From the NCBI RefSeq assembly GCF_003268005.1, contig NZ_CP014213.1, positions 2,129,501 through 2,193,500 of the forward strand: a stretch of DNA of 64,000 bases, read 5' to 3'. A program made the position numbers and the translations under genes. Under the pieces are notes generated by a model. The model saw only the letters and a program-made list of their open reading frames with translations, made no database searches and had not been told where the DNA came from. This stretch comes from Methanosphaera sp. BMS. Its GTDB lineage: Archaea; Methanobacteriota; Methanobacteria; Methanobacteriales; Methanobacteriaceae. This document shows positions 11,466-18,858 of this stretch, one piece after another (position 1 is the first letter of the stretch; every line of letters starts with the position of its first letter).

Positions 11466-13790
11466 TTATTCTGAGTCATTCAACCATCCAACCACCGCAC
11501 ACTGGCCCATGGATACACTACCATCACCACAGCATGTTTTTTCATGCTGAATAAATTCGTAACCCTCTTTTTGCACACATTCCTTAACAATTCTGGATAT
11601 GTACTCATTATAAAATACGCCACCCGTGGCACCGATCTTATCAACATCATAGGTATCTGCCGTTATCAAGGCAACATCACTAATGCTTTCGGCCAATGCC
11701 TTCTGTGAAGCACGTGCTATTTCACAGCTTGGAACGCTACTTCTTATTAGTTCCAATACATCAAGCAAAAGGCTGCTTGTATCTATAACTACACGTTTAT
11801 CAATAACTTCCTTATCAAGTGTTATATTTATCAGGTCACTTGCCTTCTTGGCGGTACTTTCCAGTTTCATGGAGCATTCCCCTTCATATCCGCGTGATTT
11901 ACTTATCCTTAGAAGTACACTGACACTGTCAAGCACACGTCCCATACTGCTTGTGTATGACGTGTTGAATTTATTCTCCAGTTGTTTCAGGGTCATGTCA
12001 ATTTCCTTATCACCATACTTGAAGAAATCCGAATACTCGTTTTTCATAATGCTTCTTAACTCTTCTGCTTCCATTACATCATAGAGTATTCCCATGGCCA
12101 TACGTATGGGATACTTGGTGCTGATATCTCCACCGGGCATGAGTTGCATTTTAAGTCCCCCGGTATTTACGTACTTGCCTGTACTATTGACATAGAGTAC
12201 TTCTCCACCCCATATGGTAGTGTCTTCACCGTAACCTACACCATCGGCAGCTATAACAACCATTTCATCCTCATTGTGTTCAGCCATCAGACTTGCCGCA
12301 TGTGCATGGTGATGCTGTACGCCAACCAATGGTATTTCATGTTCCTTTGACAAATCCTTTGCAAGTTTTGTAGTATTGAAGTCAGGATGCATATCACATG
12401 CAATATAATCCAACCTTGAAGTTTTGGTAAGATGCAAGAGGTGGTCTATGGCATTTTCCATAAATTCAAGCGTTCTGATTTTTGACGTGTTACCTATGTG
12501 TTGTGACGGATAACACTTGCCCTCTTTAAGTATGGAAAATGTAACGTCAAGTTCAGGACCTACTGCCAGTATATTATCCGTTATGTTGATATCCGTAAAG
12601 TCAAACGGCTTCGGAACATATCCTCTGGAACGTCTGATAAAGGCGGGTGAATTGTTTCTAAAACGTACGACACTGTCATCACAGCGATTAAGTATCTTTC
12701 TGTTATGTAAAAGGTAATAATCAGCAATTCCATCTAATTTATTTACAATATCGTTATTGTCAATTAGCATCGGATCACCAGGCATGTTTGCGGATGTCAT
12801 CACATATGCTTCTTCCAAAGTATACTTGAACAGCAGATGGTGAAGTCCAGTATACGGTAGCATTACTCCCTGATTATGAAGTCCCGGCGAAAGGTTATCT
12901 GCCAGGTTGTAATCCTCACTCTTATCAAGCACTACAATCGGTCTTGCAACGGATTCAAGCATCTGTTTTTCATCATCGTTATAATCGACAAATAATGATG
13001 CTGTTTCAATATCGGGACTCATACATGCAAATGGCTGGGTCTTTCTACCAAGACGTTCTCTTAAAGTTTCTATAGCATCCTCCGTGGATGTCTTGCATAC
13101 AAGGTGTGTTCCTCCAATACCCTTAATTGCCAGTATATTGCCCTCATCAATTAACTTGCTTGTCTCTTGAATGGCATCACGTGATTCTATTCTTTCATCC
13201 TTATACAGGTACACTTCAGGTCCACAGTCGGGACAGCATGTGGCCTCGGCATGGTATCGTCTGTTAAGGGGGTTGCTGTATTCCTCATTGCAGAAATCAC
13301 ATAACGGAAATTCATCCATGGTCGTGTTTTTCCGGTCATAGGGTATCTTATCGATTAATGTAAATCTTGGACCACAATCGGTACATGCGGTAAATGGATA
13401 ATAATAATGTTGATCTTTGTCGTTTAATATTTCAGCCAGGCACGTTTCACATATGCTCATGTCCGGTGGTATAACAGCAGATCCGGATATCCTGTCACTG
13501 CTTTTTATTATTGTAAAATCAGCATATTTGTCCTTTTCTGTCACTTTATCCTGTATATCTACCTGGATATTGTTTATCTGGGATTGTACTGGTTTATGTT
13601 CATAAAGTTCATCTACGAATAAGTTGATATCATCATATGGTCCTTGTATAAGTATTTCAACAATGTTGCCCATGTTACGTACGTATCCTGTCAGATTCAT
13701 TAGCTTTGCCAGCCGGTATACTGTTGGCCTAAAACCTACTCCCTGAACGATTCCTTCTACTAGTAAATATCCATTATATTCATCCATCAT
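11466..13790 (-). CDS. hypF: [NiFe]-hydrogenase maturation carbamoyltransferase HypF
   Basis: HypF uses carbamoyl phosphate to carbamoylate the C-terminal Cys of HypE, the first step in making the cyanide ligands of [NiFe] hydrogenases. Domains in order are: acylphosphatase (about 1-90, with GIVQGVGFRPTVYRLA); two zinc fingers (CETC...CTDCGPRF and CDFC...CCPDCGP); YrdC-like domain; and a C-terminal Kae1-like domain with the metal site HHHAHAASLMAEH. The 774 residues match the family. TTG at 13796 is in frame, but AAAGGGG positions the ATG at 13790 better. It is divergent from larB, which builds another nickel cofactor. Confidence 0.96.
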   Translation of the reverse strand: MMDEYNGYLLVEGIVQGVGFRPTVYRLAKLMNLTGYVRNMGNIVEILIQGPYDDINLFVDELYEHKPVQSQINNIQVDIQDKVTEKDKYADFTIIKSSDRISGSAVIPPDMSICETCLAEILNDKDQHYYYPFTACTDCGPRFTLIDKIPYDRKNTTMDEFPLCDFCNEEYSNPLNRRYHAEATCCPDCGPEVYLYKDERIESRDAIQETSKLIDEGNILAIKGIGGTHLVCKTSTEDAIETLRERLGRKTQPFACMSPDIETASLFVDYNDDEKQMLESVARPIVVLDKSEDYNLADNLSPGLHNQGVMLPYTGLHHLLFKYTLEEAYVMTSANMPGDPMLIDNNDIVNKLDGIADYYLLHNRKILNRCDDSVVRFRNNSPAFIRRSRGYVPKPFDFTDINITDNILAVGPELDVTFSILKEGKCYPSQHIGNTSKIRTLEFMENAIDHLLHLTKTSRLDYIACDMHPDFNTTKLAKDLSKEHEIPLVGVQHHHAHAASLMAEHNEDEMVVIAADGVGYGEDTTIWGGEVLYVNSTGKYVNTGGLKMQLMPGGDISTKYPIRMAMGILYDVMEAEELRSIMKNEYSDFFKYGDKEIDMTLKQLENKFNTSYTSSMGRVLDSVSVLLRISKSRGYEGECSMKLESTAKKASDLINITLDKEVIDKRVVIDTSSLLLDVLELIRSSVPSCEIARASQKALAESISDVALITADTYDVDKIGATGGVFYNEYISRIVKECVQKEGYEFIQHEKTCCGDGSVSMGQCAVVGWLNDSE

Positions 13791-14779: not shown

Positions 14780-14922
14780 TGGGGTCACAGGGATTTGAAC
14801 CCCGATCCTGGGATTTCTCTTGTCTCAGCACTCCAATTGATCATCATCGGTATGCCTCAGTGTGCGCACTTTCTTCAAAGACAACTGGAGTCCCAGATGA
14901 TGCCAGGTTACACCATAACCCC
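14780..14922 (-). tRNA. tRNA-Trp (CCA) with 70-nt intron
   Basis: Exons fold as acceptor GGGGTTA/TGACCCC with discriminator A, anticodon stem TGGGA/TCCCA and T arm CGGGG-TTCAAAT-CCCTG. The loop C-T-CCA-G gives anticodon CCA (14886-14888), then an intron between positions 37 and 38 (14815-14884), the canonical archaeal site. The intron is itself a box C/D guide RNA (separate entry). CCA is not encoded. A 90-codon ORF crossing this gene is spurious. Confidence 0.94.
14815..14884 (-). ncRNA. Box C/D guide RNA inside the tRNA-Trp intron
   Basis: Read on the minus strand, the intron opens with stem TTGTCT and closes with AGACAA. Inside are C box TGAAGA, D' box CTGA, C' box TGATGA and D box CTGA, in that order. 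The guide before box D (CAATTGGAGT) pairs with ACTCCAGTTG across the anticodon loop and intron start, with one G:U pair. By the rule that the base paired to the fifth guide position is methylated, the target is C34. This matches the known archaeal tRNA-Trp intron guides. The D' guide contains GTGCGCAC and I find no target for it in this tRNA. Confidence 0.85.
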
Positions 14923-15082: not shown

Positions 15083-15110
15083 TGTTCGTTATATTCAATC
15101 TATATGAAGT
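15083..15110. repeat. dif-like dyad site A
   Basis: A 28-bp imperfect dyad with left arm TGTTCGTTATA and right arm TATATGAAGT around about 7 bases. Sites B (16607-16635) and C (17649-17676, inverted) share the TTCG-TAT and GAAGT arms. Each lies 70-120 bases past a decayed or truncated adhesin 3' end. The shape resembles XerC/D-type recombination sites; function is inference. Confidence 0.45.
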
Positions 15111-15147
15111 AAAAAAGTAAAACATGAAAAATAAATTGGGGGATAGG

Positions 15148-15172
15148 ATAAGAGAGGACAATCCTCTCTTAT
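15148..15172 (-). terminator. Terminator hairpin of adhesin remnant A
   Basis: Perfect 11-bp stem ATAAGAGAGGA/TCCTCTCTTAT with a CAA loop, 10 bases past the remnant's stop codon. A similar hairpin follows the other two adhesin 3' ends. Confidence 0.75.
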
Positions 15173-15181
15173 TAAACGTGT

Positions 15182-15316
15182 TTATGCTGTTATGGTTAAG
15201 GTTTTTACATCTTCAAGTTTATCATAATTTGTTGATGTGAAGACTGCTGTGATGTTGTAGTCTTTGGCTTTCATGTTCTCTGGTAGTGTGTATGTTGTGT
15301 TTGCTTGGTTGTTTTC
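15182..15316 (-). pseudogene. Adhesin-like protein, 3' remnant A
   Basis: On the minus strand the last 43 codons of an adhesin-like gene survive, running from NNQANTTYTLPE to KLEDVKTLTITA before the stop. They closely match the C terminus of the truncated adhesin at 17797. Upstream the frame is closed by TAA within two codons, and no further homology is visible. This is a relic of a large surface protein that has lost everything but its final Ig-like strand region. Confidence 0.75.
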
Positions 15317-15355
15317 TTATATACTATAGTTATTTTTCTTGTGGGTTATATTGTG

Positions 15356-15760
15356 TTAAATGGATATGTTGTTTATTTCTTTTATTTTATTAAAATCATC
15401 ATCGAATGAGAGTATGTCGGTTATTCCCTCTTTTTTCATGGATAAAATGATTAGCCAGTCACTATAGTTGATTGTATAATCATATTTTTTATATAATTTG
15501 ATTGCTTTTTTGTAGTCGTTTTCGCTTACAAAAATTATTTTATCCATGGCTAATAGAAATGAGATTATTTGTTCTCTTTTTCCATCATAATATGGTTTTG
15601 TCAATTTATAGAGTACTTCATTTAACACTATGTTGTTTATTGCTTTTGGTATTTTATCAATGTCTGGAATAGTTTTTATAATTTTTTCTGCTGATTTGTT
15701 TCTTTTATACTCTTTTTTATTAAATAGTGCTATGATAAAACTGCTATCTAAAAATACCAT
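15356..15760 (-). CDS. PIN-domain toxin (VapC-like)
   Basis: Likely Mg2+-dependent RNase toxin. The acidic active-site residues are all visible in 134 residues: Asp in FLDSSFI near the start, Glu in NIVLNEVLYKL, Asp in INYSDWLI, and Asp in LSFDDDFNKI. It follows its putative antitoxin by 17 bases, and GGAGGT 9 bases before ATG supports the start. It is clearly related to the PIN gene at 63421. VapC toxins usually cut tRNA or rRNA; the target here is unknown. Adhesin debris on both sides marks an accessory region. Confidence 0.85.
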   Translation of the reverse strand: MVFLDSSFIIALFNKKEYKRNKSAEKIIKTIPDIDKIPKAINNIVLNEVLYKLTKPYYDGKREQIISFLLAMDKIIFVSENDYKKAIKLYKKYDYTINYSDWLIILSMKKEGITDILSFDDDFNKIKEINNISI

Positions 15761-15777
15761 TTAACATTTACCTCCTA

Positions 15778-16167
15778 TCATAGGATCCATTTTTCATTTA
15801 AACAGTCTATTTCATCTGGTGATTCGACTATTCCAAGCATATCACTAAGTTTAACATTGCTTTCTTTATCACTTTTGTTTTTTTCAACAATTTCTTTAAT
15901 TTCATCCATTGTTAGCTTATTTTTATCTGAAACTATTTCAAATGTATCTTCATCCAAATCATCTAATTCTGTATTTGGATCATTTATGTTTATATTTAAT
16001 GTTTTTGCAATGTCATCAATAGTTTTCATATTACCATTATTTTTTTCTTCATTTAATCCATTTAAAATGTATATATTAGCTAGTTCTTTTTGGGTAATTC
16101 CTAATTCTACACTTTTAAGCTTTAGTTGTCTTTGAATATCAAGATCAATTCGTATTGTAGCATCCAT
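15778..16167 (-). CDS. Ribbon-helix-helix antitoxin
   Basis: The first 40 residues, with TIRIDLDIQRQLKLKSVELG and then ELANIYILNGL, fit a ribbon-helix-helix DNA-binding fold. The remaining 90 residues are acidic and Asn-rich, and probably wrap and inhibit the PIN toxin encoded 17 bases downstream. At 129 residues it is longer than the paralogue at 63141 (92 residues). The difference is in the acidic tail, suggesting that each antitoxin is specific for its own toxin. Autoregulation by RHH binding at its promoter is usual for such pairs; I do not see a clear operator. Confidence 0.8.
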   Translation of the reverse strand: MDATIRIDLDIQRQLKLKSVELGITQKELANIYILNGLNEEKNNGNMKTIDDIAKTLNININDPNTELDDLDEDTFEIVSDKNKLTMDEIKEIVEKNKSDKESNVKLSDMLGIVESPDEIDCLNEKWIL

Positions 16168-16606
16168 AATTATATCAACTCTATATCTATTTAGTTTGAT
16201 ATATAGTATATTATTGTAGATTTATATACTTTACCACAATAACACAATGAGTGGGTATTAGACAAAACTCTTAAATTTCTTGTTTTTAACTATAACCTTA
16301 TAGTATGGGGGCTTGTTGAAAACGTGGTTGGAACTTCAAATAATATAACAGGTTATTAATTAATAATATTTGCCAATCATCAATCAATACACCAATATAA
16401 CTGCCTATAAAAAGGTAATATGAATCCCTTTTTTTTCATGATTTGTCATATTCAAAAACAGACCTTACTCTGTGGAATTGTAATGTTAAATGATTATTTT
16501 TTTGCTGTTTAAAAAAAGGATGTGTATGGGGTTGTTGTTGAGTTTGGGGTTGCTTTTTTTTAATATGTTGTGTTAATTTTTTTGATGGTGTTATGTGTTG
16601 TATTTT

Positions 16607-16635
16607 AGTTCGGTATACTAATTAGATAACGAAGT
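16607..16635. repeat. dif-like dyad site B
   Basis: 29 bp: AGTTCGGTATA, a short spacer, then ATAACGAAGT. The right arm is identical to that of site C. It lies about 83 bases past the stop of adhesin remnant B, the same layout as sites A and C. Confidence 0.45.
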
Positions 16636-16690
16636 AAAAATTTGGAATAATAAAAGGGGTATTAGAATCAGAATAGGGAGGGAGTGTAAA

Positions 16691-16704
16691 AGAGTTAATA
16701 CTCT
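16691..16704 (-). terminator. Hairpin after adhesin remnant B
   Basis: AGAGT-TAAT-ACTCT stem-loop, 14 bases past the remnant's stop. Weaker than the hairpin of remnant A but in the same position. Confidence 0.5.
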
Positions 16705-16717
16705 CTTATTTTATCAT

Positions 16718-16870
16718 TTATGCTGTCATGATTAATGTTTTGACATCTTCTAAGGGATTGTAGTCGTAGAAATTAATGGGCTGTTCGGTTGTGTTTTTTA
16801 GCTTTGATAGTTCAGGTTATGTGTAAGTTAGGTTTACTTGGTTGTTAATGATTTTAACATAGCGTACTTT
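16718..16870 (-). pseudogene. Adhesin-like protein, 3' remnant B
   Basis: On the minus strand the sequence reads VRYVKIINNQVNLTYT, then an in-frame TAA, then PEL, and ends LEDVKTLIMTA before the stop. It aligns with the C terminus of the adhesin at 17797 (YAKVSNNQVNFTYTLPSD ... LEDTKTLTVTA) but is more decayed than remnant A. It is the middle of three same-strand adhesin 3' ends within 3.6 kb. Confidence 0.7.
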
Positions 16871-17303
16871 AACATTATGTATTCAATGATCTTATAATTG
16901 TTTGGAATCGTTAGACAACAGGGATATTGTTGATAAAATAAAAAAAATTATTATGGATTTCTAAGTCTAATTTATAGGCAGGGTTGAAGTATTTTCTTAT
17001 AGGTATCTTTAAATACTATCACATTTATAATAATTAGTAGAAGAAGTTTACAAGCAAGATTCTTCATTCACGTAATGTTGTATAAGACCTGTTTTATTTT
17101 CAATAAAATGGGTTTTATTTTTTACAACATTTAATCAAAAGCTATTTCTTATGAATTTTTAATACAATATTTCATTAATTGTAATACTATTTATATTACT
17201 TTATATAAAAATATTTTATGTAAATTTACTCTTAAACCATATCCTCCAAAGGGATTAATTCAACGTGAGAATTATTGCCCGTGACCTCAAGGGAGGTGAG
17301 AAT
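16871..17303. other. Intergenic, leader of the small ORF
   Basis: AT-rich, no gene. The last 80 bases are less AT-rich and contain ATATCCTCC (17239-17247), complementary to the GGGAGGT ribosome binding site of the small ORF at 17304. The block TTCAACGTGAGAAT (about 17261) recurs in similar form at about 17473, past that ORF. Confidence 0.45.
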
Positions 17304-17417
17304 ATGAGGGGTTTTGCTTGTAAACACCAGTTATTAACATTGATAACTCTTGTTATAATATTTTTTCCTGAGATAATGAGTATATTACTCTTATATATCA
17401 TTTTATTGATATGTTAA
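17304..17417 (+). CDS. Candidate 37-aa hydrophobic small protein
   Basis: Starts ATG right after GGGAGGTGAGAAT, an almost ideal ribosome binding site. It encodes a short basic N terminus (MRGFACKHQ) followed by a strongly hydrophobic stretch (LLTLITLVIIFFPEIMSILL...) that would span the membrane. I do not recognise it. The CCTCC upstream could pair with the ribosome binding site and hide it, and CACCTCCC occurs again downstream at about 17511. Small size, hydrophobicity and a maskable ribosome binding site resemble type I toxins, but this is speculative. It lies in adhesin debris. Confidence 0.45.
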   Translation: MRGFACKHQLLTLITLVIIFFPEIMSILLLYIILLIC

Positions 17418-17648
17418 TAAGTCATAGGAAATTGCAGTAACTCGATGATGAATGAAGCCAGTAACAAGACCGTTGAACGTGAGGAATGATTCTGGTAAAT
17501 TTACATTCACCTCCCCTATCTGGAAGACACCTTCGACTTTTTACATACATTGCTTAATATTTGAGTGAATTGAAGTATTCCCTCATGAATAGGTTCAAAA
17601 AGATCATTACATGTCGTATATTGATATAATTAAAGTTACTTATTTTTT

Positions 17649-17676
17649 ACTTCGTTATATCTGCAAATAGCGGAGT
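17649..17676. repeat. dif-like dyad site C (inverted relative to A and B)
   Basis: 28 bp: ACTTCGTTATA, a 6-base spacer, then AATAGCGGAGT. The reverse complement matches site B at ATAACGAAGT. It lies about 120 bases past the stop of the truncated adhesin at 17797. Confidence 0.45.
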
Positions 17677-17768: not shown

Positions 17769-17786
17769 AGAGAGAAGAAACTCTCT
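17769..17786 (-). terminator. Hairpin after truncated adhesin
   Basis: AGAGAG and CTCTCT separated by 6 bases, 10 bases past the adhesin stop codon on the minus strand. Confidence 0.6.
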
Positions 17787-17796
17787 CATATATAAT

Positions 17797-18858
17797 TTAT
17801 GCTGTAACGGTTAAAGTTTTCGTATCCTCCAAGCGGTCATAGTCACTTGATATGAAAGTAGCTGTGAGGTTGTACTGTTTAGCCTTCATATCACTTGGTA
17901 ATGTGTATGTAAAGTTTACCTGATTATTGGATACTTTGGCATAGATTACCTTGCCGTTAGAGTCTTTGACTGTTTTGCCGTTGATTTTGAAGACTACCTT
18001 ACCATTGTTGATGACATTGTTACCATCTGTTAGGGTTGCTGTGAGTGTGATTGTTTCTCCAGCACTGGTGGTTATGTCTTCTGTTGTGATTGTTGGCTCT
18101 GTTGTGGTTATTGTTATTTCTGTTTTTTCGCTGGTCATCTTTTCAAGGTCACTTGAACCTGAGTATACGGCTTGTATGGTTGTGCCTTCTTTTGCCCAGC
18201 TTTCAGGTACTTCAAAGTCTTCAATAGTTGCCGTACCGTTTACTATCTTTGCATAGATTACTTTGCCGTTGGTGTTTTTTAGTGTTTTTCCGTTTACTTT
18301 GAATGTGATTTTTCCTTTGGTGATGTTTGTTGCTACTGTTTGTGTGTTTTCTGTTCCGTAGTATATGCTTGCTGTTATTGTGGTGGTTGTGCCTGCTGTG
18401 AATTCGGTTGTGTCTACTTTGAGGAAGTATTGTTTATCCGGTACTGGTTGGTTGTTTTGTACTGTGTTATTCTTTCCGGAGTCACTTACTGATTCGTCTC
18501 CTAGTCGTCCTGGGGTTACGAGGTAGTTGTTTTCTACTGTTGTGTTTTGTGTGGTTTTATCTATGAGTATTGTGTAATTGTAGTTTGTTGTGATGTTGTT
18601 TGTTGTGACATTTAGTGTGTTTTGTTCTTGGGTGTATATTCCGGTGTATGTTGAGTTTATGTTGTTGTTTGTTACTGTTACGTTGTATCCTCTTCCTATG
18701 TATACTCCTGTGGTTCTTGCTCCTAGGTAGTCGACTGTTGATCCGCTGATGCTTGTTCCGTTTACTGTGAGGTTGTTGTTGTTGATTTGTATGTTTAGTC
18801 CGATTACTCCGATTGCCATTGCGGTATCGCCGGTTGCGTTGAAGGTGTTGTTTTCTAA
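17797..18858 (-). pseudogene. Truncated adhesin-like protein (C-terminal part)
   Basis: About 350 codons of a surface protein. The N-terminal 120 residues are Asn/Thr-rich parallel beta-helix repeats (for example NNNLTVNGTS, NVTVTNNNINST). Two Ig-like repeats follow, each containing a GKVIYAK signature. There is no signal peptide and no ribosome binding site at the first ATG (18819). The frame stays adhesin-like for 13 more codons (ENNTFNATGDT) and then homology stops abruptly near 18858, before an in-frame TGA. So it is a 5'-deleted gene rather than a complete short one. Intact relatives exceed 900 residues, as at 53463. Confidence 0.75.

Follow-up and report, generated by a model that had tools for sequence, protein, structure and literature searches.

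Dif-like sites beside adhesin remnants

The window, the whole 64,000-nucleotide stretch of Methanosphaera sp. BMS that was analysed, contains three short dyads near the 3′ ends of adhesin sequences. This raises the question of whether a tyrosine recombinase swaps or inverts adhesin ends at this locus, as a sequence-only reading had proposed. The sites (S1, S2, and S3) and the features around them are as follows.

15083..15110, no strand: S1, decayed dif-like site with one arm intact (from the sequence; flank and site align to S2)
15150..15171, minus strand: short hairpin between the remnant and S1 (from the sequence)
15176..15313, minus strand: adhesin 3′-end remnant beside S1, without an ORF (repeat families D1/D2)
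15356..15760, minus strand: PIN-domain toxin, 134 aa, between S1 and S2 (PF01850, E 1e-14)
15778..16167, minus strand: partner ORF of 129 aa, probably the antitoxin that goes with the PIN toxin (role suggested by adjacency to the PIN gene)
16607..16635, no strand: S2, decayed dif-like site with a 7-bp spacer (PWM score 24.9)
16690..16705, minus strand: short hairpin between the remnant and S2 (from the sequence)
16712..16846, minus strand: adhesin 3′-end remnant beside S2, without an ORF (repeat families D1/D2)
17649..17676, no strand: S3, canonical 28-bp dif-like site, ACTTCGTTATA-TCTGCA-AATAGCGGAGT, with a 6-bp core and three mismatches to the family consensus (from the sequence)
17770..17786, minus strand: short hairpin between the adhesin stop and S3 (from the sequence)
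17797..18819, minus strand: 5′-truncated adhesin ORF, 340 aa, with beta-helix and Big_3_5 matches (Pfam) and its 3′ end 120 bp from S3

The three sequences were found at the positions given by the earlier reading. They differed in quality, and its claim of three dif-like dyads stood in full for S3, for S2 as a decayed copy, and not for S1 by itself. A scan of the window with a site pattern, which had been shaped on that reading's own sites, matched S3 alone, with 0.01 matches expected by chance, and the S3 dyad is far beyond chance. S2 (AGTTCGGTATA CTAATTA GATAACGAAGT) has a spacer of 7 bp, three arm changes, and an arm that matches the S3 arm base for base over 15 bp. With a PWM built from the 19 sites of the genome-wide family described below, S2 reached its score of 24.9, while other non-family matches scored at most 17.1, except for one match with a spacer of four (20.5). 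S1 combines a good arm (TGTTCGTTATA) with a decayed arm carrying five changes (CTATATGAAGT) and was not significant when taken alone; its alignment to S2 runs through the site, with 67% identity over 292 bp.

The sites had been described as lying past adhesin 3′ ends, with a hairpin between. A hairpin is indeed present at each of them, but only S3 adjoins an adhesin ORF, which is truncated, and the neighbours of S1 and S2 are short, ORF-less 3′ remnants of the same adhesin family (repeat families D1, D2, and D5). A Pfam search of the 129-aa partner ORF of the PIN toxin (15778..16167) gave no match.

The spacer cores of S1 (TTCAAT), S2 (CTAATTA, 7 bp), and S3 (TCTGCA) do not match one another, and the S3 core is one base away from the core of another site in the genome. 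Sequence analysis of the window and the genome gave no sign of S1, S2, and S3 recombining with each other. Because the cores mismatch and two of the sites are decayed, an active shuffler is less likely here than a fossil stack of module junctions: S3 appears to be live and intact, and S1 and S2 resemble scars that past turnover of adhesin modules left behind. The statement that one of the three is inverted has little meaning, since the arms are palindromic and direction resides in the core.

A multi-copy site family and its probable recombinase, XerA

The symmetric consensus ACTTCGTTATA-N6-TATAACGAAGT, scanned with a tolerance of up to 3 mismatches, retrieved 19 sites from the 2.87-Mb Methanosphaera genome and none with a reversed-pattern control. 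The sites comprise two 11-bp inverted arms and a 6-bp core, giving 28 bp (11-6-11), which bears out the dif-like architecture proposed for the window. The spacer, put at 6–8 bases in that proposal, is 6 bp in 20 of the 22 strong PWM matches genome-wide. All 19 sites are intergenic, and they are spread around the chromosome rather than present as a single copy near the replication terminus.

An adhesin borders 10 of the 19 sites, compared with 15.8% of the bases in control gaps (intergenic gaps of at least 250 bp in 20 sampled 20-kb stretches; P 2e-4), so the enrichment near adhesins for which a profile scan had been suggested was found. The remaining nine sites border no adhesin, several sites lie at adhesin 5′ sides, and many are located at the 5′ sides of genes. 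Other neighbours include genes for AAA_14/STAND-like ATPases, HsdS, restriction, PIN toxin–antitoxin, transposase, and glycosyltransferase functions. The site family is not adhesin-specific; adhesins are simply enriched among its neighbours.

Site counts were 0–11 in sister genomes of the genus and 0–5 in other Methanobacteriales. A search of 257 Gb for the exact 18-base core pattern returned 52 stretches, of which about 39 belong to Methanobacteriales, and the family is nearly confined to this order.

The Methanosphaera genome encodes one clear XerA (325 aa matched within a 353-codon frame). Its nearest PDB match is the XerA of Pyrococcus abyssi (4A8E, E 1.5e-48), the XerA of T. acidophilum was also matched, and the catalytic R-K-HxxR-H-Y residues are visible in its sequence. 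The expectation of a tyrosine recombinase was correct to the extent that a XerA-type enzyme is present; it is a single-copy chromosomal enzyme, however, and not an orphan integrase specific to adhesins. Among 49 Methanobacteriales genomes, an intact XerA orthologue (at least 61% identity) was found in all 37 site-bearing genomes, and of the 12 siteless genomes, XerA is missing from five and interrupted by a stop in two others (Fisher P 4e-4; 9e-6 when the stop-carrying genes are included). The match between XerA and sites is imperfect because G017 and G034 keep an intact XerA with no site within 3 mismatches, and the siteless G002, G023, and G024 have XerA at 58–64% identity. The chromosomal XerA most likely binds and recombines the sites.

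Cores, breakpoints and rival explanations

Site anatomy was examined in 121 sites collected from 25 genomes. Arm variation occurs mostly at positions 1, 2, and 7, on one side at a time, and the arms therefore appear to act as separate half-sites and not as an RNA stem. The core has a GC content of 52%, compared with about 23% in the flanks. No core has A at position 1 and none has T at position 6 (0/121 each), and palindromic cores are absent (0 vs 1.9 expected). The 121 sites carry 78 distinct cores, and all 19 cores in the Methanosphaera genome differ.

Orthologous sites usually keep their core across flank identities of 66–99%. Most pairs with homologous flanks from different genomes differ at 0 or 1 of the six core bases, even at 66–80% flank identity; pairs with larger differences include the family G009_L197, in which the core is inverted relative to the flanks. 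Within genomes, 11 homologous pairs differ at 2–5 of the six core positions at flank identities of 68–89%, six of these pairs coming from one four-site group in the Methanosphaera genome (G000). Avoidance of similar cores was not significant across all within-genome pairs (4 pairs at no more than one difference vs 7.4 expected), and the idea of the core as an address therefore depends on the homologous pairs together with the spacer rule established by experiment for pdif sites of Acinetobacter plasmids, where inversions and deletions need identical or nearly identical spacers (PMC13141974).

Flank homology between loci often ends at the site edge in comparisons made at stringent alignment settings (low-stringency alignments gave AT-rich noise). 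G008 and G019 share 99.1% identity across 15.2 kb that run as far as the right arm of a CCCAGC-core site. Beyond it, a broken adhesin and two small genes occupy 4.99 kb present in G008 alone, after which 98.8% identity resumes; at the site itself, the two genomes agree in left arm and core and differ in the right arm. The far end of the 4.99-kb block retains no other intact site with this core. A 2.05-kb AAA ATPase block distinguishing G004 from G007 begins 4 bp past a TAAGGG site, and between G007 and G018, which are 97% identical nearby, a tract of 79% identity stops 4 bp from that same TAAGGG site. Draft contig ends lie within 10 bp of a site in 6 of 80 cases (0.14 expected), and two contigs of G015 overlap by exactly 77 bases at a site. 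Such an overlap points to branching in the assembly graph, and mixtures of strains are another possible source of contig ends at sites.

Several close site pairs exist among the loci compared, and their cores match in one only, a pair of inverted sites in G007 (L074:5789–6224) that encloses 408 bp between divergent glycosyltransferase genes (a 1571-aa GT2/CDP-glycerol glycerophosphotransferase-type enzyme and a 1035-aa GT1/GT2 enzyme). The 408-bp segment is a plausible candidate for an invertible promoter. The locus was sought in relatives of G007, and no close relative holds it; no same-core direct pair within a genome was found among the loci compared. The proposed swapping or inversion of adhesin ends thus survives only in part: flanks do switch at sites, but 9 of the 19 sites have no adhesin, and the same-core inverted pair lies at glycosyltransferase genes.

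We consider it probable that these XerA/dif-like sites border exchangeable accessory modules as an archaeal counterpart of pdif modules, with XerA acting on the sites and the cores serving as addresses. XerA would join only sites with matching cores, and the coexistence of many sites in one genome would be stable for this reason. Accessory modules would enter or leave beside a retained site and core, probably through same-core sites on circular modules, plasmids, or viruses, with one of the two copies lost afterwards. S3 would be an intact site of this kind, and S1 and S2 would be decayed ones that stayed behind next to 3′ remnants of earlier adhesins.

Sites on plasmids and viruses bear both on this mechanism and on an unlikely alternative, in which the sites are attB/attP sites of methanogen viruses or plasmids whose own integrases mimic XerA sites, the chromosomal copies being left-overs and XerA incidental. 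In its favour, on a 48-kb viral contig a site precedes a tyrosine integrase gene by 126 bp, two viral contigs of about 100 kb each carry the core CAATGG in common with one site of G014, and integrase-like ORFs of the Methanosphaera genome lie within about 11 kb of several of its sites. On the other hand, the sites track XerA across the order, including the loss of both. Two plasmids, pMTBMA4 of M. marburgensis (4.4 kb) and pMTB1, carry a site with an identical core, and such 4.4-kb plasmids have no recombinase among their annotated genes. In a third Methanothermobacter plasmid, the left arm and core are kept, and the right arm and flank differ. The retention of cores by orthologous sites across species also argues against left-overs, since it indicates sites that are maintained and not decaying.

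The family might instead bind an operator-type or chromosome-organising protein (ParB- or regulator-like), with the flank differences reflecting ordinary gene turnover in long intergenic gaps. The palindromic form and the intergenic position of every one of the 19 sites fit such a role, and a second conserved element, roughly CAAAAATCAACCACNACATATANATNAAA, which in 45 of the 121 cases lies to a single side of the site at a distance of about 73 bp (and passes in no shuffled flank), could be a regulatory partner. Such an operator gives no reason, however, for a core that differs between homologous sites within a genome yet is fixed between orthologues, nor does it explain the homology breaks inside or within 7 bp of the site or the co-loss with XerA. 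We regard it as quite improbable.

Dispersed repeats of the REP/BIME or MITE type, spread by a transposase, would account for the multiple intergenic copies and for the transposase genes adjoining some sites. The flanks outside the 28 bp are mostly unrelated, though, and different families of the order carry the same sites. This very improbable reading was rejected on the loop, which is unique to each locus and conserved there across species. An RNA hairpin (terminator or processing signal) at adhesin 3′ ends, suggested by the perfect inverted repeat near some of these ends, is scarcely credible and was rejected, as the arm changes in the 121 sites are one-sided with no excess of compensatory stem changes, the stem is followed by A and not T in both directions, separate terminator-like hairpins already stand between site and stop, and many sites lie on the other side of genes, at their 5′ ends.

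The XerA/dif-like module reading can be extended, tentatively, to a chromosome-wide Xer address system in Methanobacteriales. One housekeeping recombinase and many dif-like sites with distinct conserved cores might together dock matching plasmids, viruses, and modules, flip at least one surface-glycan promoter, and shuffle adhesin, defence, and toxin–antitoxin genes. If the module reading is true, gene exchange in the style of dif modules would extend from Acinetobacter plasmids to archaeal chromosomes, and the turnover of adhesin and defence genes in gut methanogens would be explained without dedicated mobile-element machinery. A directly testable rule would follow, with core identity marking the places at which a housekeeping recombinase may rearrange a genome. 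On pMTBMA4 of M. marburgensis, the site is a candidate for multimer resolution.

Comparison with known Xer and inversion systems

The closest archaeal relative is the XerA/dif system described in Pyrococcus abyssi (PMC2958812), which shares the 11-6-11 inverted repeat and a XerA orthologous to the present one, with the catalytic residues; the sites here occur mainly in Methanobacteriales, an order with conserved XerA. Using a Thermococcales model, Cortez et al. 2010 reported one dif for M. stadtmanae (PMC2958812), and this may be a different site from the six family sites in that genome; the Thermococcales-type dif pattern occurred at about control level in five genomes. A review of archaeal tyrosine recombinases gives dif as 11-6-11 in passages that make no mention of multi-copy sites (PMC8371274). 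Beyond the single M. stadtmanae dif (PMC2958812), no earlier report was found in the open-licence literature, which is weak evidence of novelty. A 2.9-kb excised circle of M. smithii has its borders inside genes (PMC12134362), and no link is made between it and the present sites. Unlike the archaeal system, which has one site, the Methanosphaera genome has 19, each with its own core and with the arm ACTTCGTTATA, and the family is thus not a plain dif, because it is multi-copy. Its sites are distributed around the chromosome and on plasmids and viral contigs, and they border accessory genes.

Integrative elements of the CTX-phi type use the host Xer. The host-type site on viral and plasmid contigs is similar, whereas the chromosomal targets here are many and have different cores, instead of one dif.

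Bacterial invertons (PMC5903667) are resembled by the G007 locus, where two same-core sites in inverted orientation enclose 408 bp flanked by divergent surface-glycan genes. The G007 sites differ in being dif-like and in having no dedicated invertase gene identified.

The pdif/dif modules of Acinetobacter (PMC13141974) differ in that their XerC and XerD arms are not alike, whereas a single XerA and symmetric arms are found here. They are also plasmid modules with sites at both ends, while the present sites are mainly chromosomal and each locus usually has a single intact one; the blocks compared begin at a site and show none at the far end, and the family is therefore not counted as a full pdif module. 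The likeness lies in the multiple 28-bp sites, the variable 6-bp spacers, and the association with toxin–antitoxin and accessory genes, and it extends to the sequence itself, as pdif arms such as ATTTCGTATAA are close to the ACTTCGTTATA arm of the Methanosphaera sites.

Second element and core orientation

A second conserved element, AACCACNACATATANATNAAA, was found in the flank of 45 of the 121 dif-like sites collected from 25 genomes, on one side only and at an almost constant distance from the site, and it is perhaps the site of an accessory protein. At L024 (L numbers denote loci with their own coordinates), the element lay approximately 73 bp to the right of the site.

When homologous flanks were taken as the reference, the core of the L197 site of the relative genome G009, CAGTAG, was inverted relative to that of its CGGTAG orthologues; the core looks as if it had been flipped. 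In another relative, G007, two inverted sites with an identical core (TTAAGC/GCTTAA) were spaced 408 bp apart between divergent glycosyltransferase genes (L074:5789-6224), and the 408-bp segment is a candidate phase-variable promoter for surface glycan genes.

Sites on plasmids and a viral contig

Dif-like sites were also located outside chromosomes:

L315:3600-3627 (NC_014409) and L313:4026-4053, sites with core TCATTA on the cryptic Methanothermobacter plasmids pMTBMA4 and pMTB1
L256:6772-6799, site on a viral contig
L256:6926-8185, tyrosine integrase gene, 126 bp downstream of that site

The viral site is probably attP. A third Methanothermobacter plasmid (L314:5135) shared the left arm and core of pMTBMA4 and pMTB1 and differed from them in the right arm and flank.

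Introns, repeats and a recombinase-like ORF

Introns and repeats lay near several sites:

L025:9564-11920 and L022:13526-15882, group II introns, mutually 97-98% identical, with a reverse transcriptase ORF (Rfam domain V in L025)
L034:9097-9396 and 11493-11792, perfect 300-bp direct repeat in which a short ArsR-like ORF has its 3' end

Both introns were placed between a site and an adjacent gene; in L025 the stop codon of an adhesin was followed by a T-run and then the intron. The 2.1 kb enclosed by the direct repeats included a site, and 23-bp tandem repeats of the AATTGGTAAAATGTTGGGAATG type directly adjoined another (L021:9339-9469).

At L023:4273-5313, 1.4 kb from a site, a 346-aa ORF without a Pfam hit resembled a tyrosine recombinase by eye and had an hsdS-like gene on either side; HsdS shuffling may take place at this locus. 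In L087, an ORF related to it adjoined a site.

Other features of the window and its genome

Window 14780-14922, minus strand, tRNA gene (Rfam RF00005 match, 143 bp; not detected by ARAGORN)
C1:1989949, 2238467 and 2494108 (own-genome contig), three identical copies of the 26-bp imperfect palindrome ATGGATATAAGTCTGATTATATCAAC

The tRNA gene is probably split by an intron. The genome also contained stop-free adhesin-like frames of 9883, 8458 and 7099 codons, and the palindromes probably belong within a repeated element.
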